Source: Paucilactobacillus suebicus DSM 5007 = KCTC 3549
GTDB taxonomy: Bacteria > Bacillota > Bacilli > Lactobacillales > Lactobacillaceae
Assembly: GCF_001434475.1 (NCBI RefSeq)
Contig: NZ_AZGF01000016.1
Location: forward strand, 1-53,229
Length of the DNA stretch: 53,229 bases
Reading direction: 5' to 3'
In this document: positions 18,668 through 53,229 of the stretch, piece by piece
Layout: each line of letters starts with the position of its first letter
Position numbering within the stretch: position 1 is the first letter of the stretch
Notes under the pieces: model-generated
What the model was told of the DNA's origin: nothing
Seen by the model: only the letters and a program-made list of their open reading frames with translations
The model's database searches: none
Translations under genes and position numbers: made by a program

Positions 18668-19372
18668 TTGACAACAGATGAACAACCACTTTATCGTTAC
18701 TTTGCACAACCAAAGGTTAACTCATTTCTTAAATCAATCGTTGGCTGTGAGCTGCTATTAAAACTTCATACTTCAGAAGGATGGCGACAACCAGAAGATT
18801 TTAACCAAGTTCCCAGCTACATTGTGGCGGACCGTCTGGTAAAATCAACCGAAGTATTGGCATCCAAAATTGGCAACGTTTCGGTTAATTTAAGTACGAT
18901 ACAACTCATTAACCCATTAATTAGAAACGCTTTGCTCAAAGCGCAGACTAACTTGCGGCCAGTCAGATTGGTGATTGAAATGATTGAAGAAGATAATGGT
19001 GTCTAAATCCAAGATCCTAGCGTGTTAGACGCGGTCAAAAGTTTCACCGATAACGGGCTCAGCTTTTCGATTGATGATGTTGATTCAGGTCAAAACACGT
19101 GGGAACATATTCAACCATTACTACCTTATGCTACTGAATTTAAGTACGCTCTGCAAAACCGTAATGAACATCTCAGCGATCCTGACGCTAGGAAGAGAAT
19201 TCAAGTGTGGCAGCAACGTGCCGATCAATTCAACATTCAGCTAATTGTAGAAGGAATAGAAGATTCATCAGACGTTAAATGGGCTGACAAAATGCAACTA
19301 GATCTACGCCAAGGATACCATTATGGCAAGCCGTCTTTAGTCCGGTTAAAGGACAGCGATCCAGACAACTAA
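18668..19372 (+). pseudogene. EAL-domain c-di-GMP phosphodiesterase gene interrupted by a TAA codon
   Basis: A stand-alone EAL domain (~234 codons) broken by an in-frame TAA at 19004-19006; the frame continues without shift to 19372. Upstream of the stop are GCELLLK (EAL position), VSVNLS and LVIEM. After it come FSIDDVDSGQ, EFKYAL, IVEGIEDS and RQGYHYGKP. Apart from the stop, nearly all catalytic positions are kept, so the loss looks recent. The start is TTG behind TAGGAGC. It is convergent with the EAL-pgaD-pgaC operon. Sequencing error or suppression of the stop are the alternatives; otherwise only a 112-residue fragment is made. Confidence 0.85.
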
Positions 19373-21264: not shown

Positions 21265-22059
21265 CTAATCAATTAACGGATTTTTCGGCTTACCAAATCT
21301 GTATCCCTGTAGTTCTCCAATCTGTAATTGTTGCGCCAAATCTTCATCCTCTGGATTTTCAACTCTAGTTAAGATCATCTCAAAATTCCACTTTTGTGCT
21401 AATTTATTCCAAGACTGTAAATTCAAATCAAGCCACTGAGTCGGATCCTTTTTCCTAAATTCATCCATCACACATTTAACTTGATCAGTAATTGGCAACA
21501 ACCACTCGATTCTATCGTAAAATTCTTGTGTAGCATCCGCATCATCAATGCAAAACTCCATGCCATAGTACTGAGCTTGCTCAATTTGACTTTTCAGACG
21601 TCTCTGCGTGAATCTGGTTAACGAACCAGTTGGTGCATATTCAATGATTAAAGACATGGGATCAATTTTACTAATTGCCCATCGAACAAAATATGAAAAT
21701 TCTGGGCTTAAAATTTGACTGACTTCAAGATTAATCGATAGCCTCATTTGTTCCCTGGGTAACGACTTAAAGGTCTCTTCAAGTAAACTGATAACTCGCT
21801 GAAGCGGCACATCAAGTTCACCTGGTAAAGTCCACTTATTCTGATTTCTTTGTCTTAGCAAACATTCATAGCAGATAACTTGTCCGTGATCACCAACTGT
21901 TTCTTGAATGAAATATCGTAGTCTTGCTTGTTCTTCTTTTTCCAAATAATTATTTGAACGTTGACGTGAATAGTAATAGTAAATAATAATTGTGACCATT
22001 GCTACAACGAGTGCAATAATACTGATCACTAATAAAAGTAGTTCAAGTTCAGATAACAT
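21265..22059 (-). CDS. Membrane-anchored EAL-domain protein, probably inactive or receptor type
   Basis: 264 residues: one N-terminal helix (~6-30) and an EAL domain (~45-264). Kept positions: ECL (65-67, for EAL), N110, E140, DD 172-173, K195 and Q251. The EGVE motif has become TRVE (231-234), losing its first glutamate, and loop 6 reads DDADATQEF, so hydrolysis of c-di-GMP is doubtful and a binding or regulatory role for the synthase behind it is possible (inference). The chosen ATG at 22059 follows GAAGGGA; an upstream frame to 22107 lacks a ribosome site. First gene of the EAL-pgaD-pgaC operon. Confidence 0.85.
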   Translation of the reverse strand: MLSELELLLLVISIIALVVAMVTIIIYYYYSRQRSNNYLEKEEQARLRYFIQETVGDHGQVICYECLLRQRNQNKWTLPGELDVPLQRVISLLEETFKSLPREQMRLSINLEVSQILSPEFSYFVRWAISKIDPMSLIIEYAPTGSLTRFTQRRLKSQIEQAQYYGMEFCIDDADATQEFYDRIEWLLPITDQVKCVMDEFRKKDPTQWLDLNLQSWNKLAQKWNFEMILTRVENPEDEDLAQQLQIGELQGYRFGKPKNPLID

Positions 22060-37233: not shown

Positions 37234-38151
37234 TTATAGTTCATCTTTTAGTAACAAATAGTTAACTAGCGTTCTAGCTTCAGATTGACTTCCTTCAACA
37301 ACCTCAGGATGGTAAATTAACTGAGGGTCATTTAAATCAATTACTTTAAACTTACTGCTTATTTTTTTTAACGTTGGCCATGTTTCATCTGCGTACCGAT
37401 TACCAATCACGTAACCAAAATCAATTTTCGTAAACGGCCGTGATAGTTCGTTAATCACTTCAATACGATTCGAATCGATAAAATCTTGAGTACCAATCAA
37501 CAATGGCATTAATGGATAATCGCTGATATCAATTAATGGGTCATTGGCGACAAATTTCCAGTGATTTTTCAGGCCATAGTATTGAGCTGCAAAACCGCCC
37601 TTGGATGAACCATATAACACAATGTGGTCCATAGAAATATTGAACCGTTTAATGGTTTGAAGAATTAGCATGATAACATCGTTTTCAAACGTGGAATAAT
37701 TTTGGGTATTCATGAAAAAAGAGCCCACATTCAGATTAAAATCAATAATTCTTAAGACAATCGTGTTTCTTGGCACACCATCAAAACTTTCGGTGACATA
37801 TCTAGACCAGTAATTTGATTGTACCATTTCATCGTAAATGCCAGTACCACCAAAATCAACCACTAAATTTCTCGGTTGTACGTTCGAAAGACTAGCCGGA
37901 TCAAGTTTAAAGACCAGCCCCCGGTAACGGGCATACCCAAACTGATCAACCTCAATTAACTTACGTGGTACATAATGATGCTGGTGTCCCCGACTATGGT
38001 CCAATATCAAATCACGAGCTAACAATTGCTCGTGCGTTTTATAAAACTCCTGATTACCTAGCACGGCTGCTGAAAATGGATTATCAGTTGAATCAGTAAT
38101 TAAATCAATTGATCCATCTTCATTACTTACTAACTGATTTATTACTTCCAC
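37234..38151 (-). CDS. Putative alpha/beta-hydrolase-fold protein of unknown role
   Basis: 305 residues, no signal peptide or membrane helix. A nucleophile-elbow motif is visible: IVLYGSSKGGFAAQYYGLK (G-S-S-K-G-G near residue 193), with downstream LIYHPEVVEG offering a possible catalytic His near the C-terminus and DFGGTG as a possible oxyanion region. The overall pattern resembles Asp2 and XcbB/CpsF-type proteins linked to surface glycan modification, but I cannot assign a family firmly. It lies alone near the exopolysaccharide cluster, followed by a strong terminator. Confidence 0.5.
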   Translation of the reverse strand: MEVINQLVSNEDGSIDLITDSTDNPFSAAVLGNQEFYKTHEQLLARDLILDHSRGHQHHYVPRKLIEVDQFGYARYRGLVFKLDPASLSNVQPRNLVVDFGGTGIYDEMVQSNYWSRYVTESFDGVPRNTIVLRIIDFNLNVGSFFMNTQNYSTFENDVIMLILQTIKRFNISMDHIVLYGSSKGGFAAQYYGLKNHWKFVANDPLIDISDYPLMPLLIGTQDFIDSNRIEVINELSRPFTKIDFGYVIGNRYADETWPTLKKISSKFKVIDLNDPQLIYHPEVVEGSQSEARTLVNYLLLKDEL

Positions 38152-38633: not shown

Positions 38634-38678
38634 AAAGCTTCATTAGCTGATTTTTTGACCAGTTAGTGAAGCTTTTTT
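38632..38678. terminator. Bidirectional terminator overlapping the GtrB-like gene end
   Basis: AAAAAGCTTCA / TGAAGCTTTTTT with further wobble pairing inside. Ends the RHH gene on the plus strand and the GtrB-like gene, whose stop lies in the stem, on the minus strand. Confidence 0.8.
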
Positions 38679-39659
38679 AGTTGTCATATCAATTTGTGTC
38701 TTAGAATTAACCGTTTTTTCAATTTGATATCTTGGTCGTTGTTTTACTTCCGTAAATACCTTACCAATATATTCACCAATAATGCTCAGCGACGTTAACT
38801 GAACTCCACCTAAAAACCAAATCGAAATCATTAATGATGGCCAACCAGTGGTAGTATTCCCCAAAAATCTTTGAATAAGTGTATAAACCATTAGTGCGAT
38901 GCTTAGAATAATACTAGCAAAGCCTAAATACATAATAATTCTAATTGGTGCAAGCGAAAACGACGAGATGCCATCAAAGGCAAAATTCAACATTTTCTTT
39001 AACGGATACTTTGATTTACCGGCATAACGTTCTTTACGCATATAGTACACCTTAGCGCTCGGATACCCAACCAGTGGCACAATACCACGTAAGAAGAGGT
39101 TTCGCTCACGATACTTGAGTAAGGCATGGATGGCTCTCTTGCTCATTAATCTATAGTCGGCATGATTGTATACCATCTTCACACCAAAATGTTCCATCAG
39201 CTTATAAAACGTTTCTGCACTATACTTCTTAAACCAAGTATCAGTCTTCCGATTATTACGCACTCCATACACGACATCCGCCCCTTCAAGATACTCATCC
39301 ACCATCTTAGGAATAATATTAATATCATCCTGAAGATCAGCATCAATCGTTATTGCAATTGAAGTACTTTGTTCAACCATGGTTAAGCCAGCAATTAATG
39401 CATTCTGGTGGCCAAAATTTCGGCTGAATTTAATTCCACTCACATATTTGTTGCTGTCATTTAAAGACTCAATGCACGACCAAGTATTATCTCTACTACC
39501 ATCATCAACAAATAAGATTCGGCTCTTTTTACTAATTTTTTGATTTTTTATTAACTGAGTTAATATCGAAGTTATCTCTTTCGCAGTTTCGAAGATTACC
39601 TCTTCTTCATTAAAGCAAGGGATGATAATCGTTAGAATATTTACTTCATTGTTTACCAA
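38643..39659 (-). CDS. GtrB/CsbB-like polyprenyl-phosphate glycosyltransferase
   Basis: About 338 residues: a GT2 GT-A domain (IIIPCFNEEEVI, VDDGSRDNTW, KFSRNFGHQNALIAGL, TIDADLQDD), then GKSKYPLKKMLNFAFDGI and two C-terminal helices. This is the GtrB/CsbB/DPM1 layout: enzymes that transfer a hexose or HexNAc from a nucleotide sugar to undecaprenyl phosphate for use outside the membrane. The TTG at 39659, 6 nt after GGGGTGG, is preferred to 39692. It is 100 nt behind the PssE-like gene with its own possible -10 (TATAAT near 39705), so it is part of the locus but perhaps separately controlled. Confidence 0.85.
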   Translation of the reverse strand: MVNNEVNILTIIIPCFNEEEVIFETAKEITSILTQLIKNQKISKKSRILFVDDGSRDNTWSCIESLNDSNKYVSGIKFSRNFGHQNALIAGLTMVEQSTSIAITIDADLQDDINIIPKMVDEYLEGADVVYGVRNNRKTDTWFKKYSAETFYKLMEHFGVKMVYNHADYRLMSKRAIHALLKYRERNLFLRGIVPLVGYPSAKVYYMRKERYAGKSKYPLKKMLNFAFDGISSFSLAPIRIIMYLGFASIILSIALMVYTLIQRFLGNTTTGWPSLMISIWFLGGVQLTSLSIIGEYIGKVFTEVKQRPRYQIEKTVNSKTQIDMTTKKASLTGQKIS

Positions 39660-39758
39660 AGCAATCCACCCCAATTTAATCTCGTTTAACACTTATATAG
39701 GTATTATACTACTATACGTTTAAAAATAAATTTGGCGCTTAATTTAGAGACTCCATTC

Positions 39759-40613
39759 TTAAACATCAAACTGTGTCTCATGAATACCGGCATTCATTAA
39801 ATCGTAAGGATTATGCATTGACTTTTCATCCCACGATGCAATTCCCACAACCATCGAAATTGCCAAATTAACTAAATTAGTATTTTCTTTCAGTGCATTA
39901 TTGAATCCATTTTTAATCCGATCTGCAGCAATTTGTGCTCCATCCGCATCTGAGTACAGCAAGATTGCCCACGTTGGGTCATCATTATTTAACAGGTAGG
40001 TAATATCATTTGTTCTTGTTTTTTCTTTAATCGTTGTAGACGTGATTTTGAGAAGCGTCTCCAGTTGATTTTCACTCATCATGCGTTTTAAATCATCAAA
40101 ATATCTGATTTTTATAATCGCCGTTGTAACTGGCAGGTTAAATCTACGGTTTGTTTCAATAAACACAGCTACATCTTCTACATACGCAACAGTGGTTCTC
40201 AAATTTGTTTGCTGATCAAATGCCCCTCTCTCAATTAATGCTGTTCTCAAACTACTATTGGATTGTTGTAGTTTAACTTGATTGCGGGTCATAAAATATA
40301 GTGATAGCGATAGCATCAGGGGTAGTAAAATCCAAAAACTAAGTTGCCATGATATGTCTGCGTCTTTTACTAAATACTGATAAATTTCAAATACCGCCTG
40401 TATCGCCATAAACAGCATATTACTCAGGATGCTCGGCAAAAGTCCATAAAAATACGTAACTATTAGTAACCCAACAGTGCAAAAGAGGTAAATAACGTTG
40501 ACTAACTCATGTCCGGTCAATGTCATTAGAACGGCCGTAATACTGAATAAAGTTAAAAACAATAATAAACCAACGTCTTCCAACAGTGATTCACGCTTGT
40601 CTCTATTTTTCAT
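39759..40613 (-). CDS. PssE/YdaK-like c-di-GMP receptor with degenerate GGDEF domain
   Basis: 284 residues: four membrane helices (~15-108) and a GGDEF-fold domain (~125-284). At the active site GGDEF is replaced by NNDDP (209-213), so it cannot be a cyclase. The inhibitory-site motif RxxD is intact as RTND (200-203), exactly five residues before it. This combination is the hallmark of Listeria PssE and Bacillus YdaK, which bind c-di-GMP and activate a polysaccharide synthase. The ATG at 40613 follows GGGGGA by 7 nt and overlaps the PssD-like gene end by 11 nt. Confidence 0.88.
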   Translation of the reverse strand: MKNRDKRESLLEDVGLLLFLTLFSITAVLMTLTGHELVNVIYLFCTVGLLIVTYFYGLLPSILSNMLFMAIQAVFEIYQYLVKDADISWQLSFWILLPLMLSLSLYFMTRNQVKLQQSNSSLRTALIERGAFDQQTNLRTTVAYVEDVAVFIETNRRFNLPVTTAIIKIRYFDDLKRMMSENQLETLLKITSTTIKEKTRTNDITYLLNNDDPTWAILLYSDADGAQIAADRIKNGFNNALKENTNLVNLAISMVVGIASWDEKSMHNPYDLMNAGIHETQFDV

Positions 40614-42717
40614 GTTTGTGTCCCCCATTCAGTAATGACTGCTTTTTTAAAATTAAAATCACGACAGCGCATAAAGCAACCAAGGCAAGAACAATTAATC
40701 CGAGATATAAAATAATCTGAGAATTACTGTCAAAAAACCTCTTTTTTACTAATGATTCATTTATAGCTTTATCCTTCTTAAATCTGTACCCATAGTGATT
40801 GTTATTTTGGTCGACTACAATGGCATCCCCCGAATACTGTTCAATGTTTTTCTGGAAATTAATTTGTGTTGAAGCCAGATAAGCAGCCTGATTTGAGGCT
40901 CCAGTTACAACAAGCATTCCTCGTCTCTTATTGTATGGAGATCTAAGCAACTGAGCTGTACCAACTTGTGTACCGTAATTCTTTTCTATACTCAATTTTT
41001 CGTTAGACACAATTCTTGTTAAATTTTTTGAAAATTTAAAATATAAATCTTTATTTAAATCTTTAATCATCTTGTTTGATTTTGGTGTTCCAATGACGAT
41101 TACATTAGAATTGGCCAAAACCTTATTACTAGGTTTGTGAGTGTAGAATTGAATATTACCAGTATTGCTCTTAGCAAAACTACCAATTAAGTTGAAGACA
41201 TTGGTTAATGTTTGATAGTCAACCGATGATAACCTCTTTGGTAGCACCACTGCGATGTTATTATACGTTTGGTGTTTAATAAATAAAGTTGGATAGTTAG
41301 TATAAAGCAAGTCATTGCTTCGTTCAGATTTAACTATCATTCTCGAACTTGGTTCTACCTGAGCCCATGGTGTATTTGAATTATCAGAATTATCATTTCC
41401 GTTTGTTTCAAGATCAAAAGCCACCTGAACTGTAAAACTATTACCTAACGCCGTTCCACGAGGAACATCCACAGTCAGTTCATCCCCATCAGCATGAGAC
41501 TTAGTTAGTTTTTTACTTCCAAGTGTTGTGTTATTAACGTAAACAGTAACCAATGAATTTTTAAAATCCATGTTTTTACTATATTTAAAATGAAGTTTAA
41601 CCTTTGACCCATCAGCATTAGAACGATCATTTGGTAAACTAATTTGATAGGTTGTTGTTCGATGACCTGAACCCGTGACGACATCTGGTGAACTTGTAAG
41701 TTTGTATTTCTCATTATCATGCAGTGATGAACTGTCAGTATCTGTTGATGAAGTAATTGTTTCTGCGGACTGATTAGTTTCATTCATTAATTCTTGGTTT
41801 GCGACAAACCGTGCGGCTTTTTTTAGCAGTTTGCCGTTTTTAGCTGTGACAACTAAATAGTGCTTGCCATTTTGATATTGGGTCATAACCAATGCGTTAT
41901 TTTTGAGTTTTGACTGATCAATTTTATTTTTTAAATTATTTGGTAGGTGATTATATGTCATCACTGCCATAATGTAATTTCCACTTTGTGCGTTCATGTC
42001 CGAATATTTCACAACGGGTATCTGTTCATTAGCGGTTGTGATAACTCTGGCTTCGCCTGCCAATGTGATCATTGCAGCAGTTAGCTCATCACTTGATGCA
42101 TTGTTAGGGGTAACAATTTTTGACTCCTGATTTGCAATCGTATCCTGGCCGACAAAATGGCCATAAAATGATGCCACGGTATTATCGGCATCCTTTAGTT
42201 GGTACTCAAAATTAACATTCGATCCGCTCTTTATGGTTAACCAATTGGCTGGAGTTTGTGCTAGTTGATAATTACCTTTACCTTTTTTAGTTAATATTTG
42301 TCCAGTAATTTTAAGAGTATTATCGCCACTCAACAAACTAACTGGTATCTTAATTTGTTCTGTCTGAAATCCTGACTTATTGCTTGGACGAAACGAATAA
42401 AATTTAACCCCGTTAATAGAAACCGTTATATCTGATGTTTGCTTTGATGATAGTTGTGAAACTTGATAGTTAAGGTTAAATGTTGCATTTTTGACATTCC
42501 AATATTCCATTTTGGTAAAGTACATATTAGATTCAACAGACTGTCCCGACAATGTTGTTGTACTATTTTGAAATTGCTGAGTATACGTCTGGTTAGCCGC
42601 ATGCACGTCACCAACCTCAAAAGTAAAAAATACGCCCACAGAAATGATAATTAAAAACCATTTAATGATAACGCTTTGTTTTATACCATTTTGCTTGTTG
42701 ATGAAAAACTTGTTCAC
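40603..42717 (-). CDS. PssD/YdaN (BcsB-like) extracytoplasmic synthase subunit
   Basis: 704 residues: an N-terminal signal/helix (~10-35, ending near DVHAA), a long extracytoplasmic beta-rich region and one C-terminal helix (~670-695, IILYLGLIVLALVALCAVVILI). This is the BcsB layout: a carbohydrate-binding partner that guides the chain leaving the synthase. The start is taken as GTG at 42717, 7 nt after GGTGGGG; an ATG at 42750 would extend further into the PssC-like gene. With the GTG start the overlap with PssC is 56 nt. Confidence 0.85.
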   Translation of the reverse strand: MNKFFINKQNGIKQSVIIKWFLIIISVGVFFTFEVGDVHAANQTYTQQFQNSTTTLSGQSVESNMYFTKMEYWNVKNATFNLNYQVSQLSSKQTSDITVSINGVKFYSFRPSNKSGFQTEQIKIPVSLLSGDNTLKITGQILTKKGKGNYQLAQTPANWLTIKSGSNVNFEYQLKDADNTVASFYGHFVGQDTIANQESKIVTPNNASSDELTAAMITLAGEARVITTANEQIPVVKYSDMNAQSGNYIMAVMTYNHLPNNLKNKIDQSKLKNNALVMTQYQNGKHYLVVTAKNGKLLKKAARFVANQELMNETNQSAETITSSTDTDSSSLHDNEKYKLTSSPDVVTGSGHRTTTYQISLPNDRSNADGSKVKLHFKYSKNMDFKNSLVTVYVNNTTLGSKKLTKSHADGDELTVDVPRGTALGNSFTVQVAFDLETNGNDNSDNSNTPWAQVEPSSRMIVKSERSNDLLYTNYPTLFIKHQTYNNIAVVLPKRLSSVDYQTLTNVFNLIGSFAKSNTGNIQFYTHKPSNKVLANSNVIVIGTPKSNKMIKDLNKDLYFKFSKNLTRIVSNEKLSIEKNYGTQVGTAQLLRSPYNKRRGMLVVTGASNQAAYLASTQINFQKNIEQYSGDAIVVDQNNNHYGYRFKKDKAINESLVKKRFFDSNSQIILYLGLIVLALVALCAVVILILKKQSLLNGGHKHEK

Positions 42718-43924
42718 GAATATACCCCACCATTCCATAAGCTGCCACAATCAGCCACATTTGACTATAAACTAAGTACATAAACACTATCAGCAATAGA
42801 TTGCTAAACTTCATTTCACCTTTCTCAGTTGTAATCGTTGCAAAGGTACTAATCACAAACATCAGAATGGCAAACAGCCACAACGAGTTGCTGAACCCTT
42901 GAAGGGTTGAATGTGCTAACCCGGCAACGGAAAGCACAAAGGCCGTATCCGATAAAATTAACGATGTCATTAGAAGAAAATAAACCGATAAAAAGTACAA
43001 AAGATCAAACCTAATCGGCCTGCCAGATTTTTGAAACAATTTTTTGGCATTTTTAATAATCACATAGATATTTCCTTTAACCCATCTTGTCCGTTGATGA
43101 AACCAGACATCTAGAGTCTGTGGTTCCTGTTCCCACGTCACAGCACGTGGCTGGAACTGGATTCTGTAGCCCATTTGATAAACTCTAAAACTAATTTCAG
43201 TATCTTCTGCAAGTGCTTTAATGTCCCAGCCACCGATTTCATCTAGCACGTCACGACGAATCACATAATTTGTACCCGGGATAGTGCATAAATGAAATAA
43301 ATGTTGTCTGCCTGCTTGCGCCATCCATTGAAAAGATAAAGTTTCGATATTAATAAATCGAGTCAATAAAGTTGCGTCTTTATTGCGCGTTCTGAACTTT
43401 CCAATAACTGCTGCAAGCTGGCGATCATTCAACAATTCGGCTACTAACAGCCTTAATGCCTCATGTTCAGGTGTGTTATCTGCATCATAAACTGAAATGA
43501 TGCTTCCTTTGGCCTGCTTTAAGCCAATATTCAATGCGTTTGATTTTCCTTTACCGCCATTGGTTTTGTCCGTATTAATAATTTTTAATCGGGCACCAGT
43601 AAATTCTTCCTGCAACTCTCCCAATAATTGTGCGGAATTATCACTAGAATTATCATTAATAACAATTACCTCATACTTGTCATGCGGATAATCAAAACTC
43701 AGTAAGGATAACACCGTTTTGACAATAACAATTCCTTCGTTGTGTGCAGGAACCAGGATAGATACGAACGGTACTTTACTCGGCAAAGACTTATCGACTT
43801 TTTTTACTTGTTTTAAATACCATGTGTATCCGGCAATTGTTAGGATTAAGTTAACAACTAAAATGCCCCAAATTGAGATGATAGCAATCATTAATAAAAA
43901 ATCGAGAATTGAGATATTATTCAC
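42662..43924 (-). CDS. PssC/YdaM-like processive glycosyltransferase (GT2)
   Basis: 420 residues: N-terminal helix (~10-35), GT-A domain (~50-290), four or so C-terminal helices. Processive motifs: NDNSSD (90-95), DAD (147-149), AED (239-241, the TED position) and QRTRW (277-281). There is no PilZ domain; c-di-GMP control is expected through the separate PssE-like protein. In Listeria the homologous complex makes poly-beta-1,4-ManNAc. The GTG at 43924 lies almost on top of AGAAGG, so the start is uncertain; an ATG at 43891 is possible. Confidence 0.88.
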   Translation of the reverse strand: MNNISILDFLLMIAIISIWGILVVNLILTIAGYTWYLKQVKKVDKSLPSKVPFVSILVPAHNEGIVIVKTVLSLLSFDYPHDKYEVIVINDNSSDNSAQLLGELQEEFTGARLKIINTDKTNGGKGKSNALNIGLKQAKGSIISVYDADNTPEHEALRLLVAELLNDRQLAAVIGKFRTRNKDATLLTRFINIETLSFQWMAQAGRQHLFHLCTIPGTNYVIRRDVLDEIGGWDIKALAEDTEISFRVYQMGYRIQFQPRAVTWEQEPQTLDVWFHQRTRWVKGNIYVIIKNAKKLFQKSGRPIRFDLLYFLSVYFLLMTSLILSDTAFVLSVAGLAHSTLQGFSNSLWLFAILMFVISTFATITTEKGEMKFSNLLLIVFMYLVYSQMWLIVAAYGMVGYIREQVFHQQAKWYKTKRYH

Positions 43925-43927
43925 CTT

Positions 43928-45484
43928 CTAGCGTTTAAACATGTTTCGATAAATGCGTCGACCAATCAGAATGAACACAGTCAAAATTAGTGATACGAGT
44001 ATGAAGAACACAGCTAAAATTAGCCCTTGAATTTTGAAAAATCTCTTAAAAATAGTATTACTTGTTTGACCATTATCTTTAACGTGAAACGTACTTGTCT
44101 TATTTTTTATTTTTTCATACTCTTTGTTTAAGTAATACTTACCTGACCGATACTCAACCGTTGTGGATCCTGAATGAATCCTTGTTTGCCACCGTTCATT
44201 CTTAGGACTTAGCCAATCGGTTTGTAACGAATCAATTTCTTTTTTATCAGTCTGTAATTGTGAGTTAGATTCCGGTATCGAAATTGTCAGAGCTGTCGGT
44301 ACATTAAATTTAATCTTACTTGTATTCTTCATGCTATTAATTGACGATGCGGGCAATGCAAACAAACTCTGTACTGCCGTTCGACTATTATTATCTTGTT
44401 TTAGATACGTCACGTCTGTGTTCGGTAGTAACAACCAATGATCAGCCTTAGCCAACGAATTATTTCTAAGAACTGTATCTTGATTCCAAAAATTTTGTGC
44501 ACTAATGCCGACTGGAAAAACTTGATTATTTGCAAAACTAACAAAGTATTTCGTAAACATTTGGCTTAGTTCCGGTCCATCATCCTTGGTCGCCCCGCCA
44601 ATCGTTGGCGCCTGAACAAAAATAACTCCACCATAATTTTCAACTTTTCTTAAAGCCGTTGTGAATCGTTTATAAGCTTGTAATTCAGTATTTTTATCAA
44701 CTGTCACTGTACTAATTGCAAATGGTATATTGTGATCGCTACAATATTTACTTGTTTTTACTAATAATTTCAAATTCACATACGGTGAAACATTAGTAAA
44801 TGTCAGTAACGGCTTGTATTGGGAATTATCACCAAATAGCTGTGATAAGGTACTTTCCGCAACCATTAACTCCAATCCATTATTTGCTATTTCTGGAATA
44901 TATGCGTTCTTCCCAACGATCGTACTAAAAGAATAATTTTTTTGATTCTGCTGCTGAGTTTTCAACTCACCAATTGGCTGAGCACCAGATGGGGCCTTCT
45001 TTATCACAGTTATTGATTCACTAAACGGTAATATCTGCTGGTTATCACCGTCGTCTAAAATAAACTGTTGCTGATGAACCCGTGCCGTGGTCACGTTCAT
45101 TTGTGTGGCCTCGTTGTTAGTTAACCCGGCACCAATATGAATTTTATAACCAGTAAAGTTATCACGATCTGATTCAAATTGATGGTTGGTAAACCCAGCC
45201 TCATCCCAATTCACCATTGTTATCACTGCTGTATAACTACTATTTAGCATTCCACCATGGTAATTGGATTCTTTCAGCGTTCGCACCCTAAAATTCATAC
45301 TAGTTAAAATTCGTTGTAAAGTATCAATCTTCTTTTCATCATGATCTGCTGTATTTTTTGAATCATAGACAAGCATGATTTTATTTCCAGAATTGGTGGT
45401 AGCTTGGGCATTTGCATTCAAGTTAACCAAAATCAAAACCAACAATGCTGTCAATAACACTACATAAAGCTTAATTTTATGCAT
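43928..45484 (-). CDS. PssB/YdaL-like secreted DUF2334-type protein with degenerate active site
   Basis: 518 residues: signal helix (MHKIKLYVVLLTALLVLILV), an extracytoplasmic region, and a C-terminal helix (~480-505) with a basic tail. The middle resembles DUF2334, a polysaccharide deacetylase-related domain: LLTFTNVSPYVNLKLL matches the family's LRIEDVSP block but has TN for the metal-binding ED, and VIFVQAPTIGG stands where a HGYTH-type histidine motif is expected. The domain is thus probably not a deacetylase. The ATG at 45484 overlaps the PssA-like stop as ATGCATAA; GGCGGTG precedes it. Confidence 0.75.
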   Translation of the reverse strand: MHKIKLYVVLLTALLVLILVNLNANAQATTNSGNKIMLVYDSKNTADHDEKKIDTLQRILTSMNFRVRTLKESNYHGGMLNSSYTAVITMVNWDEAGFTNHQFESDRDNFTGYKIHIGAGLTNNEATQMNVTTARVHQQQFILDDGDNQQILPFSESITVIKKAPSGAQPIGELKTQQQNQKNYSFSTIVGKNAYIPEIANNGLELMVAESTLSQLFGDNSQYKPLLTFTNVSPYVNLKLLVKTSKYCSDHNIPFAISTVTVDKNTELQAYKRFTTALRKVENYGGVIFVQAPTIGGATKDDGPELSQMFTKYFVSFANNQVFPVGISAQNFWNQDTVLRNNSLAKADHWLLLPNTDVTYLKQDNNSRTAVQSLFALPASSINSMKNTSKIKFNVPTALTISIPESNSQLQTDKKEIDSLQTDWLSPKNERWQTRIHSGSTTVEYRSGKYYLNKEYEKIKNKTSTFHVKDNGQTSNTIFKRFFKIQGLILAVFFILVSLILTVFILIGRRIYRNMFKR

Positions 45485-46964
45485 TGGCATCACCGCCTTC
45501 ATCGGTATTCCAAAGCTGTTTATTTAGCATGTCTGATATAAACAAAATAACTGCTAAATCAAAACTCAACGGCGCCATAAACATATGTTTAGCAAGATCA
45601 GCCTCACCATCACCAAGAATTGAAATGATTGGTACAAATACGAAAATAGTCATTAATCCGACTACCAACAAAAACCTTAAAATACCGTGGAAGCGCCTTG
45701 AACGAAAATCTCTATAAGCTCCAACAGCATAAACGGCGACAAATCCAATGGCCGTTAAACAGACAAATGCGAACCTACCGGGATAAAACGCACTTAAATA
45801 TGAGCTGTACAATGTAAAATATCTAACTTGTTCATTAGGCTTATGTCCAGCTCCACGCGTATAATCACCAACAGATTTTACCTGTGTAATCATGACGTCT
45901 TTGGCGGCTAAATCCATTAAATTAATAAATTGCTGACGATTATGTAAATAGTATTTAACGAACCAGACAATGTTCATTTTGCTGGTTAGTTTTTTGGTTA
46001 TGTTTTTGCTAGTTGGTTTAACCGCATCAAAAGTCTTTGAATAATAAGCCTGCGATCTCATCAGCGCATATTGTTCATTAACTCCTTGTTTATCAATTTT
46101 CTTGCTTGGATCGTTAGTTTCCATTAATGCTCCATAAGAAAAAGCTTGATACGTATTGTAACTAGTAAAGTCTTTATTAATAGAAGCGTAAATCACTATG
46201 CCGGAAATCAGTAGACATCCCATACCCACAATCACTGCCAATCGCCTTGCTTTAAATCCTGGCAAAAACACTAATCCAATTGCCACCACAGAAAAGCTTA
46301 AAGCTAGTGGCGCGTTCTGCTGTTTACTAGTTATCAGTAGAATGGTACTAACAAAAAACAAAATAATGACTGGCCACCGCCGCTTAGTACATTGACGTGC
46401 TAATAACATGATGGCAGCAAATGAATAGATTGTGGCAATGAACATCTCGGGTTCACCAAAAAAAGAATTGAAGTATAACGTAAAGGATGAATCACCAAGT
46501 ATAAACACAACGATCAGGGCAATCACGTAGCTAACCAGATTATGATGAGGATAAACAAGCGATTTGGTTAATAAATAAATCGCACCAAGATAAAACAAAT
46601 ACCAAACTAACCCCATGAAGCGAATATCAAAAATTGTCTTACTATAAAATAACTTGTTCAAAAATAGAGCCATGTGTACAAACAAAGTTTGTGTTGAAAC
46701 TACAACTGCATGATTCTCATTAAAATATTGGTAAATACCAAATTTAGTCACAATATAGCTCATAAACTGACTGTGGTTTGAGGGTAATCGATAAATGCCG
46801 TTACTGTTCATTGCCCTATAAAAATCACCAGTATCACCCAGGCCGTTGATCGGTGGAACAAAAAGTAAGATACCGCTAATGATAGCCACAAGAATCATCG
46901 CCACCATCGCTGGTGAAACATGTTCACTAATCCTGATTAAAATTTTTTTGGTGAATTTTCCCAT
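45477..46964 (-). CDS. PssA-like polytopic membrane protein, possible GT-C glycosyltransferase
   Basis: 495 residues with about eleven helices. After helix 1 there is a large outer loop starting NGLGDTGDFYRAM, and FNSFFGEPEMF lies near residue 165. Acidic pairs in the first outer loop and multiple helices are typical of GT-C glycosyltransferases that use polyprenyl-phosphate sugars. A second large outer loop (~260-370) is hydrophilic. Together with the GtrB-like enzyme at the end of the locus it could add a side sugar to the polymer (inference). GGGAG lies 6 nt before the ATG. Confidence 0.65.
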   Translation of the reverse strand: MGKFTKKILIRISEHVSPAMVAMILVAIISGILLFVPPINGLGDTGDFYRAMNSNGIYRLPSNHSQFMSYIVTKFGIYQYFNENHAVVVSTQTLFVHMALFLNKLFYSKTIFDIRFMGLVWYLFYLGAIYLLTKSLVYPHHNLVSYVIALIVVFILGDSSFTLYFNSFFGEPEMFIATIYSFAAIMLLARQCTKRRWPVIILFFVSTILLITSKQQNAPLALSFSVVAIGLVFLPGFKARRLAVIVGMGCLLISGIVIYASINKDFTSYNTYQAFSYGALMETNDPSKKIDKQGVNEQYALMRSQAYYSKTFDAVKPTSKNITKKLTSKMNIVWFVKYYLHNRQQFINLMDLAAKDVMITQVKSVGDYTRGAGHKPNEQVRYFTLYSSYLSAFYPGRFAFVCLTAIGFVAVYAVGAYRDFRSRRFHGILRFLLVVGLMTIFVFVPIISILGDGEADLAKHMFMAPLSFDLAVILFISDMLNKQLWNTDEGGDANA

Positions 46965-46976
46965 AGATGACTCCCA

Positions 46977-48101
46977 TTAATATAATGAAGCAATTAAAGC
47001 AACTAAATTATTGAACGAATAAGCATCATTCGTTGTTGCATCTCCAAGGCCACCGAAAATATCCGATTTTGAATTTAAGATTTGCGATTTCCACACTTCA
47101 TTCATCGATTTTTGGTAATATTTTTGATTATTTTGATTAGCAAAAATAATTGCAGCTAATGCATAATTCGCTGCTGACTGATCTTTATTTACAGTAGCTC
47201 CATTAGTGGAATACGCGTTGTAAAGCGACCGATGATCTATCTTAATTTTTAACCACCGAATGGTTGTCAGCTTAATTTGATTTATTTCAGATAAATGCAC
47301 GAGTGTCTCAAGTTCTTCTGAAGTATTTAAATTAGCGGAACTGTAGGTACCATTTGACCAGTTATAACTAGATGCATATAAAGGAAAAGCATCACCTAAA
47401 TAACCATCTTTCACCAATTTCAGTTGCTGCTGATAATACTTTTGATCTGTTTTCGAAGCATACTCAAAATGTTTTAATACTAAAAAATCATAACAATATA
47501 ATGAGCTATCGCTACTAGCCTGATCTGATTTAACGTCATAAAAATTAACTAAATGTCCTTTCTTGATGACGTGTTTGGTTAAAAATTGAAACCGTTGAGC
47601 GGCTTCTTTTCTGTATCTTTGACTATGTGTTAACTGAGCATATGTTTGTAATGAACGAATGATACGCAGGTCATCAATCGTGGAATTAACACTGGCTTTT
47701 TTATTTGTTTTTGGATTATAGCGATAGCTGAACTGATCGCCTTGGTCAAAATAACGTTTCGTGGTTTGATAAAATTTTCTAAATTGTGAATACTGGTGAG
47801 TTTGTACCAGATAATTAAGCCAAAGGCCGGAAGATTCCAGTAGCATTTCATGACCCGTTGCAACCTTTTTTTTAGTTCGATATTGATGATAATTTGTATA
47901 TATCCCCTGTTTAGCCAGCATCTTTGTGTCAATAAAATGTTTCAATAGTGCATCACGATGCTTGTTTCGATTGAAATGTGTATTAATTATCATCGCTTTG
48001 CAATTACCCTTTGGAACTTGCACATCGGCATCACGGTTGCTGCAACCGGTAAGTATTAAAAAAATTATTCCGAAGATGATCAACATCTTTAATTTTTTCA
48101 T
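46977..48101 (-). CDS. PssZ/YdaJ-like glycoside hydrolase family 8 lipoprotein
   Basis: 374 residues. A lipobox LTGC (Cys20) directs membrane anchoring outside the cell. GH8-like motifs: GHEMLLESSGLWLNYL (Glu85/Glu89, acid region) and STIDDLRIIRSL (Asp143/144). In Listeria PssZ, a GH8 enzyme, cuts the Pss polymer and disperses aggregates; in Bacillus YdaJ is the first gene of the yda operon. It may trim or release the polysaccharide here. First gene of the operon, 12 nt before the PssA-like gene. Confidence 0.85.
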   Translation of the reverse strand: MKKLKMLIIFGIIFLILTGCSNRDADVQVPKGNCKAMIINTHFNRNKHRDALLKHFIDTKMLAKQGIYTNYHQYRTKKKVATGHEMLLESSGLWLNYLVQTHQYSQFRKFYQTTKRYFDQGDQFSYRYNPKTNKKASVNSTIDDLRIIRSLQTYAQLTHSQRYRKEAAQRFQFLTKHVIKKGHLVNFYDVKSDQASSDSSLYCYDFLVLKHFEYASKTDQKYYQQQLKLVKDGYLGDAFPLYASSYNWSNGTYSSANLNTSEELETLVHLSEINQIKLTTIRWLKIKIDHRSLYNAYSTNGATVNKDQSAANYALAAIIFANQNNQKYYQKSMNEVWKSQILNSKSDIFGGLGDATTNDAYSFNNLVALIASLY

Positions 48102-48222
48102 TTCCGTATCACCATATAGACTCTCTATTAATTATTACGTATCCACGTGATTATTGTACTATACTTAACTTGTAATTTAATAAGAATTACTTAAAAAATT
48201 AATTTTATTTGGAGAAAAATAT
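48102..48222. promoter_or_regulatory. Divergent promoter region of the Pss-type operon and mnaA
   Basis: A 121-nt AT-rich region with several -10-like hexamers (TATAGT and TATACT around 48165, on opposite strands). No unambiguous -35/-10 pair on either strand. GGAG lies 8 nt before the mnaA ATG. Confidence 0.4.
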
Positions 48223-49365
48223 ATGGAAAAAATTAAAGTGATGACCGTCTTTGGGACAAGACCTGAAGCCATAAAGATGGCACCAGTTATTCAATTGCTG
48301 TCTGCTGATCCTAGTTTCGAACTAATCAACGTTGTGACAGCACAACACCGAGAGATGCTTGATCAGGTGTTGTCTATTTTTCATATTCATCCCCAATATG
48401 ATTTAAATATTATGAAAAAAAGCCAATCTTTAACCGATATTACGGTAAATGTGCTAAATGAAATGGATAAGATATATTCTCGTGAATCGCCCGATATTGT
48501 CCTAGTGCACGGAGATACATCTACCACATTTTCTGCCAGTTTGAGTGCGTTTTACCACCACGTCCCTGTTGCTCACGTTGAAGCTGGCCTCCGCACCTGG
48601 GATAAGCATTCCCCGTTTCCTGAGGAGATCAACCGGCAGACAACTGACGATATCAGTGAGATATATTTCGCACCAACAAAACTGAGTAAAAATAATCTCA
48701 AGAGTGAGCACCATCCTGAAAATCATATGTGGGTCACCGGTAATACGGCCATAGACGCACTAAAAGAAACGGTAACAGCAAACTATCACCATAATGTATT
48801 AGACGTGGTTAACAAAAAAAACCGCATTATTTTAGTCACCATGCATCGCAGAGAAAATCAAGGCAAACCAATGGAAGATGCATTCAAAGCCATCAAAGAG
48901 GTAATTGATAGTACCGAAAATGTCGAGGCAATTTTCCCAGTACACTTTAATCCTGTCGTAAGAAGAATTGCTAACAGTATCTTAGGAAACGACCCACTGA
49001 TTCATCTAATCGAACCTTTAGATGTTATTGATTTTCATAACTTAGCAAACAAGAGTTACTTCATCATGACTGATTCTGGCGGCGTTCAAGAAGAGGCTCC
49101 GTCACTAGGTAAACCAGTTCTCGTCTTGCGAAATACAACAGAACGACCTGAGGGCATCAAAGCTGGCACACTTAAGTTAGTTGGCACAAATCCAGATACC
49201 ATAAAATCATCAATGATTGAGCTATTAAATAACCCAAAAGCATATAGCCAAATGGCGAATGCTAAAAATCCTTACGGTGATGGGTTTGCGGCCAACAGAA
49301 TTTGTGAAGCACTAAAATATTACTTTAATATATCCAAAACGGCACCAGAAGAATTTGGAGATTAA
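48223..49365 (+). CDS. mnaA: UDP-N-acetylglucosamine 2-epimerase (non-hydrolysing)
   Basis: Interconverts UDP-GlcNAc and UDP-ManNAc in the cytoplasm. The 380-residue GT-B-like protein shows family motifs: VFGTRPEAIKMAPVI (N-terminus), TAQHREMLDQVL, VHGDTSTTFSASL, HVEAGLRTWD, TMHRRENQG and MTDSGGVQEEAPSLGKPVLV. Divergent from the Pss-type operon with a 121-nt shared promoter region. Because UDP-ManNAc is the donor for the Listeria Pss polymer, the placement suggests the same monomer here. Confidence 0.95.
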   Translation: MEKIKVMTVFGTRPEAIKMAPVIQLLSADPSFELINVVTAQHREMLDQVLSIFHIHPQYDLNIMKKSQSLTDITVNVLNEMDKIYSRESPDIVLVHGDTSTTFSASLSAFYHHVPVAHVEAGLRTWDKHSPFPEEINRQTTDDISEIYFAPTKLSKNNLKSEHHPENHMWVTGNTAIDALKETVTANYHHNVLDVVNKKNRIILVTMHRRENQGKPMEDAFKAIKEVIDSTENVEAIFPVHFNPVVRRIANSILGNDPLIHLIEPLDVIDFHNLANKSYFIMTDSGGVQEEAPSLGKPVLVLRNTTERPEGIKAGTLKLVGTNPDTIKSSMIELLNNPKAYSQMANAKNPYGDGFAANRICEALKYYFNISKTAPEEFGD

Positions 49366-49546: not shown

Positions 49547-50710
49547 TTAATTTGTGTGCGCCAATTTTTTCCCTTCAATGGTAATTTGATCTCTACCATT
49601 ATGCTTACTGGTATACAAATTATCGTCAGCACGCTTATAAGTATCATCTATAATTTCATCTTCACCATGTACCGCAGTCACACCCACAGAAATAGTTACA
49701 CGAATCGTATATTCATTATAATGAAACTCAGCACTACGAATAGCTTCAAAGCACGCTTGAATAATTGGCCGAACTTCAGCTGGATTTTTTTCAGGAAATG
49801 GAATATTAAATTCTTCTCCACCAGTTCGATATACCTGATCAGATTTATCGTATTTTCCTAACGTGTTTCTTAATGTCGTCACTACTCCAACCAACACCTC
49901 ATTACCAGCTAAGTGACCGTAAGTATCATTAATGCTTTTGAAGTGATCAACATCTAGTGTTACTAGTGTCATGGGCAGTTCCAAATCCCTGGCTCTTTCA
50001 AACATTTTCTTAGCATCCCGTGTGTACATCGAGTAAGTTTTAGCACTAGTCAATGCATCATAATCAGCTAGTTTGGTCAACTCGCGGTCGTGTTCCACCC
50101 GACGACCCTGATAAATCAGATATACGCCAGATACCAGCCCAAACACCATGAACATCAAAAAGCCTTGACTAATTACCTCGTACTTTAATGGCCCACCATT
50201 AATGTCGACTCTCGATGACCAATAGGCCAGTCCTAAATACGCCAAAAAAATGATTCGTGGCCAAAATTTATGGCCAAATTTAATATGAAAGATCCAATTA
50301 ATAGTCAAAACCACAATCAAACCAGCGAAAAGGCTAATGTATCTTGCAGTCATTAAAAATTGATACGGATATAACCATAAAGCAATTAATGCTACTGATC
50401 TAATTAGATAATTCCATAATTCCATTTCAACCGAAACTAAACTAACTGCCAGCGTAAAAATTGCCACATTAACCGTTAAAATTGGATTGGAGCTAAGATC
50501 ACCTCTAGCAAAGAAAAATAAAGCACTCGTACCAATCGTATAGACAAGCGTGAACAAAGTTGCAAGGAGGGCGCCTCTTTTTTTACCGTACGTCATTTTC
50601 AAAGATTCAAATGACAATGAAACATAGATAGCATTAAACCCAACAATGAAGAAAATACCAAATAAACTTTTCATTAACCATTGAGTCAAAGTAAATTCGT
50701 AAAATGCCAT
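49547..50710 (-). CDS. Membrane diguanylate cyclase (GGDEF)
   Basis: 387 residues: about six helices (~10-200) and a C-terminal GGDEF domain (~210-385). The active-site motif is RTGGEEF (GGEEF 297-301); the metal-binding LDVDHFKSINDTYGHLAGN block is intact. The I-site RxxD is replaced by DKSD, so product inhibition is not expected. It sits convergent to mnaA, close to the Pss-type locus, and is the window's best candidate for the c-di-GMP source. Start ATG behind GGAGGCG. Confidence 0.92.
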   Translation of the reverse strand: MAFYEFTLTQWLMKSLFGIFFIVGFNAIYVSLSFESLKMTYGKKRGALLATLFTLVYTIGTSALFFFARGDLSSNPILTVNVAIFTLAVSLVSVEMELWNYLIRSVALIALWLYPYQFLMTARYISLFAGLIVVLTINWIFHIKFGHKFWPRIIFLAYLGLAYWSSRVDINGGPLKYEVISQGFLMFMVFGLVSGVYLIYQGRRVEHDRELTKLADYDALTSAKTYSMYTRDAKKMFERARDLELPMTLVTLDVDHFKSINDTYGHLAGNEVLVGVVTTLRNTLGKYDKSDQVYRTGGEEFNIPFPEKNPAEVRPIIQACFEAIRSAEFHYNEYTIRVTISVGVTAVHGEDEIIDDTYKRADDNLYTSKHNGRDQITIEGKKLAHTN

Positions 50711-51856: not shown

Positions 51857-53229
51857 CTAGTTTCTTCTGCGACGTTTAAAACCAAACATTCCAAGTGTTA
51901 ATCCTAACATCGATAAACCTAATACCGATTCAGCAACACTGTCTGAACTATCACCAGTTTGTGGAAGTTTGTTGCTCTTTGTTTGTGAGTTTTGTTTAAC
52001 CCCATCTGAGCTGTTGCCCTTAATGCTATTGCCAGTTGACGATTGCGTCATCCCAGTCGAGGCCGAACTGCCAGTAGTGGTTGAACCAGGATTGGTTGTA
52101 GTACCACTTGCATTCGAACCAGTTCCGGTTGTGTTGCCAGTGCTACTGTTACCAGTACCATTGTCTGAATTGCCACCACCATTTGTGGCTGCTTTGGCTT
52201 TGACAATTACAGTAACCGTCTTAGAAACAGTGTTGCCAGAAGCATCAGTGTAAGAATAAGTGACGTTATAAGTTCCTGGTGTCGACAAATCAACACTGCC
52301 AGTGACTGTAATATCGTCAAATCCAATCGCATTACCATTTGCATCTGTGGCCGATACGAAATTATCTGCGGCAGTCCAATTTGAACCAACTGTAACTGTC
52401 GAATCGTTTGCCGAAATTGATGCCTTTGTGGCAGTTACCGTAACAGTGGCAGTCTTTGAAATTGTGTTACCTGCACTGTCCGTGTAACTATAAGTTACAT
52501 TGTAAGTTCCCGGTGTCGTTGTATCAACGTTACCACTCACTGTAACATCACTCAAATCAATCGCATTACCATTTGCGTCAGTAGCTGAAACAAAGTTATC
52601 TGCTGCTGTCCAAGTTGCATCTGGGCCAGCAACTATTGTCGTGTTCTTGGTATTAATCGTAGCCTTTGAGGCGACTACCGTAACGGTTGCTGTCTTTGAA
52701 ATAACATTACCAAGGCTATCCGTGTAACTATAAGTTACATCATAAGTACCTGGTGTCGTTGTGTCGACATCCCCACTTACTGTAATGTCACTCAGATCAA
52801 GAGCGTTACCACTTGCATCAGTAGCTGAAACAAAGTTATCCGCTGCTGTCCAACTTGTATCTGGGCCAGCAACCAATGTTGTGTTCTTAGTATTAATTGC
52901 AGCCTGCGAAGCGACTACCGTGACTGTCGCAGTTTTTGAAATAACATTGCCCGCGCTATCCTTATAACTGTAAGTAACTTCATAATTACCAGGCGTATTA
53001 GTATCAACTGAGCCCGTGACGGTTAAATCAATTAGGCTAAGTGCATTACCCTCTGCATCAGTCGCTGAAACAAAGTTATCTGCTGCTGTCCAAGTTGTGT
53101 CTGGACCAGCAATTAAAGTTGAATCTTTGGTATCAACGCTTGATTGTGAGGCAACCACTGTGACTGTTGCAGTCTTAGAAACCTTGTTACCAGCGGCATC
53201 TGTGTAGCTATATGTGACATCATATGTTC
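51857..53229 (-). CDS. LPXTG-anchored surface protein with Big_3-type repeats (partial, 5' end outside)
   Basis: The frame is open at the right window edge, so the N-terminus is missing. What is visible: the end of one repeat, then three 80-residue repeats and one of 78 with near-identical WTAADNFVSATDA, TPGTYNVTYSYTD and GN-ISKTATVTV blocks, the pattern of bacterial Ig-like Big_3 domains. Then a Ser/Gly/Thr/Asn-rich stalk of about 85 residues, the sorting signal LPQTGD, a hydrophobic helix and the basic tail KRRRRN. Sortase A should anchor it to peptidoglycan; the repeats probably extend an N-terminal adhesive domain (inference). Confidence 0.92.
   Translation of the reverse strand, partial: TYDVTYSYTDAAGNKVSKTATVTVVASQSSVDTKDSTLIAGPDTTWTAADNFVSATDAEGNALSLIDLTVTGSVDTNTPGNYEVTYSYKDSAGNVISKTATVTVVASQAAINTKNTTLVAGPDTSWTAADNFVSATDASGNALDLSDITVSGDVDTTTPGTYDVTYSYTDSLGNVISKTATVTVVASKATINTKNTTIVAGPDATWTAADNFVSATDANGNAIDLSDVTVSGNVDTTTPGTYNVTYSYTDSAGNTISKTATVTVTATKASISANDSTVTVGSNWTAADNFVSATDANGNAIGFDDITVTGSVDLSTPGTYNVTYSYTDASGNTVSKTVTVIVKAKAATNGGGNSDNGTGNSSTGNTTGTGSNASGTTTNPGSTTTGSSASTGMTQSSTGNSIKGNSSDGVKQNSQTKSNKLPQTGDSSDSVAESVLGLSMLGLTLGMFGFKRRRRN
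52218..53229 (-). repeat. Tandem 240-bp repeats in the surface protein gene
   Basis: Four complete units (periods 240, 240, 240 and 234 bp) and a partial one at the window edge, encoding Ig-like domains. The inner units are the most alike, consistent with recent duplication; the unit next to the stalk (TKASISANDSTVTVG) has diverged and lost two codons. Confidence 0.88.

Follow-up and report, generated by a model that had tools for sequence, protein, structure and literature searches.

A putative Pss-type exopolysaccharide operon in Paucilactobacillus suebicus and loss of the cyclic di-GMP site among its relatives

Does a polysaccharide locus of Paucilactobacillus suebicus DSM 5007 encode a relative of the Pss system of Listeria, and is its synthesis switched by cyclic di-GMP (c-di-GMP)? 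The locus lies in contig NZ_AZGF01000016.1 (positions 1 to 53,229, the whole stretch analysed here and called the window) of a 2.65 Mb genome. The original prediction, made from the letters of the window, had described it as a c-di-GMP-gated exopolysaccharide (EPS) locus of the Listeria Pss or Bacillus Yda type. We consider it likely that this is indeed a synthase-dependent EPS operon of the Pss type, switched by c-di-GMP, whose product is a chain containing N-acetylmannosamine (ManNAc) with a hexose side group. The window locus itself adds one more member to the Pss kind; the point of interest is the apparent natural loss of the switch in some of its relatives.

We infer every biochemical step of the pathway, the observed basis being homology, gene order, conservation of the c-di-GMP-binding I-site and of glycosidase family 126 (GH126) residues, and co-occurrence with the epimerase gene mnaA. 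MnaA would supply UDP-ManNAc, from which a processive family 2 glycosyltransferase (GT2, PssC-like) would polymerise a beta-linked, ManNAc-containing chain, and a BcsB-like subunit would, together with the GT2, pass the chain outward. The c-di-GMP made by the several cyclases of the host would bind the I-site of the receptor and activate the GT2/BcsB complex, in the way reported for PssE and YdaK. A GtrB-like enzyme may make a polyprenyl-phosphate hexose, and a GT-C enzyme of the WsfD family (PssA) may add the hexose outside the cell, alpha-1,6 on ManNAc. The PssB-like protein would serve as an extracytoplasmic assembly or binding factor, and the GH126 lipoprotein would trim or release the polymer.

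The gene string and its relatives

All eight genes that had been described are present in the window at the coordinates and on the strands assigned to them, including the tight overlaps and the divergent mnaA. Read leftwards from mnaA, the minus strand carries the GH126 lipoprotein, the WsfD/PssA-like GT-C protein, the DUF2334/PssB-like protein, the GT2/PssC-like enzyme, the BcsB/PssD-like subunit, the degenerate GGDEF/PssE-like receptor and the GtrB-like enzyme. The string spans 38643-48101, with adjoining genes overlapping or 3-66 bp apart. When plasmid records were searched by tblastn with the BcsB-like protein as query, five were matched, including three from Listeria and one from Enterococcus faecalis, and these supplied the annotated pssA-E genes and the E. 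faecalis operon used for comparison. In agreement with the claimed likeness to Listeria pss, blastp found homologues of all five of pssA-E in the same order on one strand, with identities of 37% (PssA), 23% (PssB), 64% (PssC), 36% (PssD) and 31% (PssE); the corresponding values for the E. faecalis operon are 31, 29, 66, 46 (over a 585-aa piece) and 28%, and 37% for the glycosidase.

The locus is not special to its genome, but belongs to a kind that is common in lactobacilli. The BcsB-like protein was matched in 45 of the 251 Lactobacillaceae genomes sampled, distributed over 16 of 40 genera, while at the level of the class the BcsB-like profile was matched in 19 of 398 genomes, with some of the matches weak (both counts include the window genome). 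For comparison of gene order, 89 related loci were collected, comprising 80 obtained by scanning genomes with the GT2 (the top 80 were kept out of 349 relatives, so that distant ones are under-sampled), two records from the plasmid collection and seven Enterococcaceae loci. Of the 89 loci, 84 have the core WsfD-DUF2334-GT2-BcsB-GGDEF in this order and on a single strand. Four of the exceptions (L104, L106, L114 and L123) are cut by contig ends, and the fifth (L139) has the genes, at distances beyond the limits of the script. Judged by this retained order, the five-gene arrangement is not due to chance. The pathway of the Pss polymer would extend to many of the lactobacilli, some food species among them.

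An intact locus might nevertheless be silent or decaying. In 15 of the 89 related loci (e.g. L075, L078, L081, L117 and L136), one or more of the core or glycosidase genes are broken up into at least two open pieces, a count in which assembly error and decay are not told apart. In the window, on the other hand, each operon gene is a single full-length open frame, and the five-gene core is kept in both Lactobacillales and Bacillales, and we regard silence or decay of the P. suebicus locus as very improbable.

The flanks of the core are less constant. The GH126 gene lies upstream in 73 of the 89 loci, downstream in 3, and was not found in 13, which include all three Listeria loci and seven loci (L121, L122, L125, L127, L128, L130 and L133) of a second, separate Pss lineage in Secundilactobacillus; S. 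similis carries both lineages (L074 and L125). In 6 of ten enterococcal loci a small extra gene (103-163 aa) adjoins the operon (L040, 14953-15264; L138, 9040-9507; L136, L171, L172 and L173), the copy in L138 being lipoprotein-like and that in L040 having no family match.

The receptor and its c-di-GMP site

The predicted receptor is a PssE-like membrane protein (39759-40628, minus strand). Its match to the GGDEF profile is borderline (23.0 bits in the scan of the window proteins and 24.3 bits in the genome search, with the cut-off at 23.8), as expected of a degenerate domain. The claim of a degenerate GGDEF receptor was borne out: the protein has NNDDP in place of GG(D/E)EF and keeps an RxxD I-site, RTND, five residues ahead. 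Counted from the start at 40628, these residues (205-208) are encoded at 40005-40016. In PleD the residues R359, D362 and R390 form the I-site together with an arginine from the partner molecule (PMC7288161), and by alignment and spacing the window equivalents are R205, D208 and R237, the last encoded at 39918-39920. We aligned 85 receptors and set aside ten rows from Enterococcaceae, six from Secundilactobacillus and one from Paralactobacillus. All of the remaining 68 rows carry both R205 and D208, and R237 is likewise present wherever a row has a letter there (67 of 67). Since these three site-less clades were set aside after the alignment had been viewed, the figures apply to what was left and do not amount to an independent test.

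Two experimental precedents are in line with such a switch: disruption of the RxxD motif of YdaK (R202A, D205A) inhibits EPS production in B. subtilis (PMC5422440), and Listeria PssE, which is required there for synthesis, binds c-di-GMP with a dissociation constant of 0.79 uM (PMC4125290). P. suebicus has a sizeable set of c-di-GMP genes, with eight GGDEF matches in the genome (the receptor included; two others lie in frames that also match EAL) and 12 EAL matches, 10 of them over the cut-off. Conservation of the site across relatives supports the proposed gating of the window locus by c-di-GMP, against which the identity of the receptor to PssE, just 31%, has to be weighed.

The receptor could instead be a structural subunit only, with synthesis constitutive or under transcriptional control. 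Enterococcaceae and Secundilactobacillus keep the receptor gene without the I-site, and the protein probably has a role beyond binding c-di-GMP. However, the window receptor keeps all three I-site residues in a host with seven further GGDEF and 12 EAL matches, and outside the site-less clades the I-site is invariant, which makes a purely structural role in P. suebicus improbable.

Several observations concern regulation in the window more broadly. Control by a c-di-GMP riboswitch was considered and rejected: Rfam at gathering thresholds yields one tRNA and no such riboswitch over the window. Matches to the promoter consensus are uninformative (53 versus 60.3 expected), and there are 14 terminator-like sites versus 7.8 expected. 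A predicted active diguanylate cyclase with a GGEEF signature (PF00990, 1.3e-29) is encoded next to mnaA at 49547-50710 on the minus strand. Three EAL matches also fall in the window, at 6879-7991 (minus), 18698-19333 (plus) and 21286-21786 (minus), one of them with an internal stop. The numbers of GGDEF matches vary widely among relatives, reaching, for example, 20 in P. vaccinostercus.

If c-di-GMP gates the operon, what happens in lineages that have no c-di-GMP enzymes? Of 105 Enterococcaceae genomes, 9 have a match to the GT2 at E <= 1e-100. In all nine, neither GGDEF (PF00990) nor EAL (PF00563) was matched, and RxxD is lost in every receptor; E. faecalis is described as having no diguanylate cyclase (PMC13229355). 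The ten enterococcal rows of the alignment make the pattern of change apparent, as R205, D208 and R237, together with N70, are the most variable of 15 otherwise invariant positions, while D18, F60, W99, L143 and Y211 stay fixed. Likewise, in a Paralactobacillus metagenome-assembled genome (1.2 Mb, possibly incomplete) there is no EAL match, the lone GGDEF match is the receptor, and the site is lost. Among 81 genomes, 65 have GGDEF matches and a kept site, 6 have GGDEF matches and a lost site, none has a kept site without GGDEF matches, and 10 have neither. L104, L106, L114 and L124 were searched for GGDEF but gave no usable receptor row, L100, L123 and L125 are not covered (L125 being of the same species as L074), and L039 and L040, as partial records, were left out. 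Although the receptor itself may be among the GGDEF matches, the best match in every one of the 71 GGDEF-positive genomes is at most 1e-29, compared with 3.5e-5 for the window receptor.

Two points weigh against a simple coupling of site and enzymes. Six Secundilactobacillus genomes of the second lineage have lost the I-site despite 3-9 GGDEF and 1-3 EAL matches, so the presence of GGDEF proteins does not always go with a kept site; in the seventh locus of this lineage (L125) it is kept. Moreover, the GT2 tree implies four changes of the state of the I-site, and a test on independent contrasts is not significant, with just 2 independent pairs on supported branches (sign test). The association in the table (Fisher 4e-9) was rejected as proof, as the Fisher value ignores kinship.

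With these reservations, we incline to the view that control by c-di-GMP is a layer which the Pss synthase can shed, whereas PssE is an obligate subunit. On the GT2 tree the site would have disappeared about four times, among others in Enterococcaceae lineages without c-di-GMP enzymes, where the operon persists and synthesis of the polymer would either not depend on c-di-GMP or answer to a new signal; the six Secundilactobacillus species, with the enzymes still present, would be caught in mid-erosion. Loss of the I-site in lineages without c-di-GMP enzymes was not seen in the open-licence literature searched, which is a limited set, and the sole study of c-di-GMP and EPS in a lactobacillus found in that search deals with a different operon (PMC6123363). 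Natural receptors with and without the site offer a means to learn what the receptor does beyond sensing.

The polymer, its side group and its processing

The GT2 (42662-43924, minus strand; PF13641, 1.3e-30) is a PssC-like enzyme, its 64% identity to Listeria PssC extending over 414 aa. The original prediction would have been in difficulty had this enzyme fallen into a cellulose or hyaluronan clade, and it did not: PssC scores 584 bits, whereas in the Protein Data Bank (PDB) the top cellulose synthase reaches 79 bits and hyaluronan synthase 30 bits. The protein is 420 aa long and PilZ is unmatched in it at 0.1, so that it does not have the makeup of a cellulose synthase (BcsA with PilZ). The BcsB-like subunit (40603-42750, minus strand; PF03170, 1.6e-40) has its first in-frame start, TTG, at 42750, where it overlaps the GT2 gene; the true start probably lies further in.

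Could the operon nonetheless make a different polymer, similar to poly-N-acetylglucosamine or to cellulose, with mnaA a mere neighbour serving another cell-wall glycan? The top curated model for the GT2 is PgaC/IcaA (182.7 bits, below the cut-off of 422.3), and among solved structures it is closest to BcsA cellulose synthases (3.7e-21). On the other hand, its much closer relative PssC takes part in making a polymer described as a beta-1,4-ManNAc chain with terminal alpha-1,6-galactose (PMC6307706), and the gene upstream in the operon belongs to the GH126 family of PssZ.

The evidence from mnaA itself cuts both ways. The window copy, predicted to encode a UDP-N-acetylglucosamine 2-epimerase (48223-49365, plus strand; TIGR00236, 3.5e-153, over the cut-off), is the sole TIGR00236 match at E <= 1e-60 in the genome. 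At this threshold mnaA was found in 178 of the 251 Lactobacillaceae genomes, namely in 45/45 that are pss-positive as opposed to 133/206 that are pss-negative (Fisher 3.5e-8, kinship ignored; the two lists of 251 genomes were cross-read and assumed to cover the same genomes, with which their handles agree). However, all five sampled pss-negative genomes of the same genus have one mnaA each, so the gene is not dedicated to the pss pathway, and its adjacency was rejected as proof of a dedicated epimerase. Within the fetched flanks, mnaA occurs in just 7 of 89 other loci, from four lactobacilli of three genera (Paucilactobacillus, Loigolactobacillus and Lapidilactobacillus) and three Enterococcaceae genomes. 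Their orientations differ, which suggests that the association arose repeatedly. Taken together, we regard a different polymer as unlikely. The co-occurrence of mnaA, together with the WsfH/WsfD precedent given below, lends indirect support to a ManNAc backbone.

The proposed side group involves two proteins of the string. The GT-C protein (45477-46964, minus strand) matches the WsfD model NF051875 at 8e-152, over the cut-off, as do Listeria PssA (1.2e-169) and the E. faecalis homologue, both far over it. In an S-layer glycan, an alpha-1,6-glucose branch on ManNAc needs WsfH and WsfD, and transfer from a lipid carrier charged by WsfH has been proposed (PMC2943079). The window string holds, besides the WsfD-family protein, a gene for a GtrB/PgfS-like polyprenyl-phosphate hexose synthase (38643-39692, minus strand, 66 bp past the receptor gene), which matches NF047588 (245.5 bits, cut-off 500) and PRK10714 (156.3 bits, cut-off 529) below the cut-off in both cases. 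Three Paenibacillus loci (L141, L145 and L146) also have a GtrB-like gene, placed immediately upstream of that for GH126. Our proposal is that PssA transfers the side chain and that the GtrB-like protein synthesises its donor, which would give PssA a testable role in lipid-linked alpha-1,6-hexose transfer onto ManNAc. This assignment has to accommodate two adverse observations: the best PDB matches of the structure predicted for the WsfD-family protein are GT-C enzymes but weak (best E 2.7e-3, none <= 0.001), and a GtrB-like gene flanks just 9 of 89 other loci, that of P. vaccinostercus not being among them.

Two family labels have to be revised. The predicted lipoprotein (46977-48101, minus strand, with an LTGC lipobox read in the sequence) had been assigned to family GH8, an identity that we reject, as PF01270 is unmatched in Pfam at 0.1 (the E. 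faecalis homologue matches it at 2.8e-4, below the cut-off). With phmmer its PDB relatives are 3ren (CPF_2247, 5e-26) and 6r2m (PssZ, 7.5e-5), both of family GH126 (PMC7479077). Of the residues invariant in that family, Glu84, Asp136, Tyr194, Arg139 and Tyr307 in the numbering of CPF_2247 (PMC7479077), the window protein keeps all five, as E89, D143, Y204, R146 and Y313, and it is thus a GH126 enzyme of the PssZ type. The former label was close, since GH8 is structurally related to GH126 (PMC7479077) and 3ren is itself titled 'family 8'.

The second label is that of a deacetylase for the DUF2334-like protein, a predicted secreted, membrane-anchored protein (43928-45502, minus strand). Its match to the DUF2334 profile is weak (0.021). 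The predicted structure (mean per-residue confidence, pLDDT, 86.6) is nearest in the PDB to PelA, a Pel modification enzyme (9cgy, E 6e-8, template modelling score 0.40), with small deacetylases lower among the matches, at E 4.6e-3 and weaker. Polysaccharide deacetylases of the DUF2334/NodB type hold their metal with an Asp-Asp pair and His ligands. At the start of the deacetylase domain in an alignment of 25 sequences, the first Asp is present in 0/25 and the second in 5/25 (the window protein has T-N), and no His is invariant; the one His conserved at >=90%, H122, lies before the DUF2334 domain. The protein is thus probably not a metal-dependent deacetylase, and we favour a role that is non-catalytic or involves no metal. 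This has to be weighed against a paper that lists PssB among deacetylases and as required for cell-wall-associated EPS in Listeria (PMC6307706); a footnote in the table there reads 'function of deacetylase remains to be studied', in a portion of the source where the row to which it belongs is not visible. The deacetylase label of PssB is thus called into question.

Two further genes were noted in the neighbourhood. A capsular polysaccharide protein of the XcbB/CpsF family (NF033892, 4e-48, over the cut-off) is encoded just past the operon at 37234-38151 on the minus strand, and near the contig end, at 51857-53158 and also on the minus strand, lies the gene of a repetitive surface protein whose Ig-like repeats resemble one another and which bears an LPQTG anchor motif.

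Comparison with known systems

The closest characterized counterpart is pssA-E of Listeria monocytogenes, in which, as in the window, the receptor is the last of the five genes and combines an intact I-site with a degenerate signature, and PssA belongs to the same WsfD family as the window GT-C protein. The window differs from the Listeria locus in the GtrB-like gene after the receptor and in the divergent mnaA. It also differs in the GH126 gene that stands first in its operon, no such gene having been found at the Listeria pss locus. The Listeria glycosidase gene lmo1913, which we take to be that of PssZ, sits away from pss in the operon dgcA-dgcB-lmo1913-pdeC.

The ydaJKLMN operon of B. subtilis encodes a similar set of functions, including a degenerate GGDEF receptor whose RxxD motif is needed for EPS (PMC5422440). 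To this extent the claim of a Yda-type locus holds, whereas the gene order does not agree. In yda it is glycosidase-receptor-DUF2334-GT2-BcsB (in part from PMC5422440), an order that the window does not share. With yda compared by description and not by sequence, its receptor gene ydaK is the second, while the window has its receptor gene in sixth place, after BcsB, and the WsfD/PssA gene in second, as expected of the Pss type. We know of no PssA/WsfD gene in the yda operon.

In lactobacilli, the gts operon of Lactobacillus acidophilus (GtsA/GtsB/PdeB), already likened to Pss by its authors, resembles the window in having a c-di-GMP receptor beside an EPS-linked GT2 (PMC6123363). The receptor there is, in contrast, a degenerate EAL protein, and the accessible part of that paper describes three genes with no mention of BcsB-like, GH126 or WsfD proteins (PMC6123363).

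Finally, the pss-type operon of Enterococcaceae (L040, L136, L138 and L171-L177) has six genes in the same order as the window. It departs from it in the very feature at issue here, as none of the ten receptors retains RxxD and the 9 genomes gave no match to either GGDEF or EAL.

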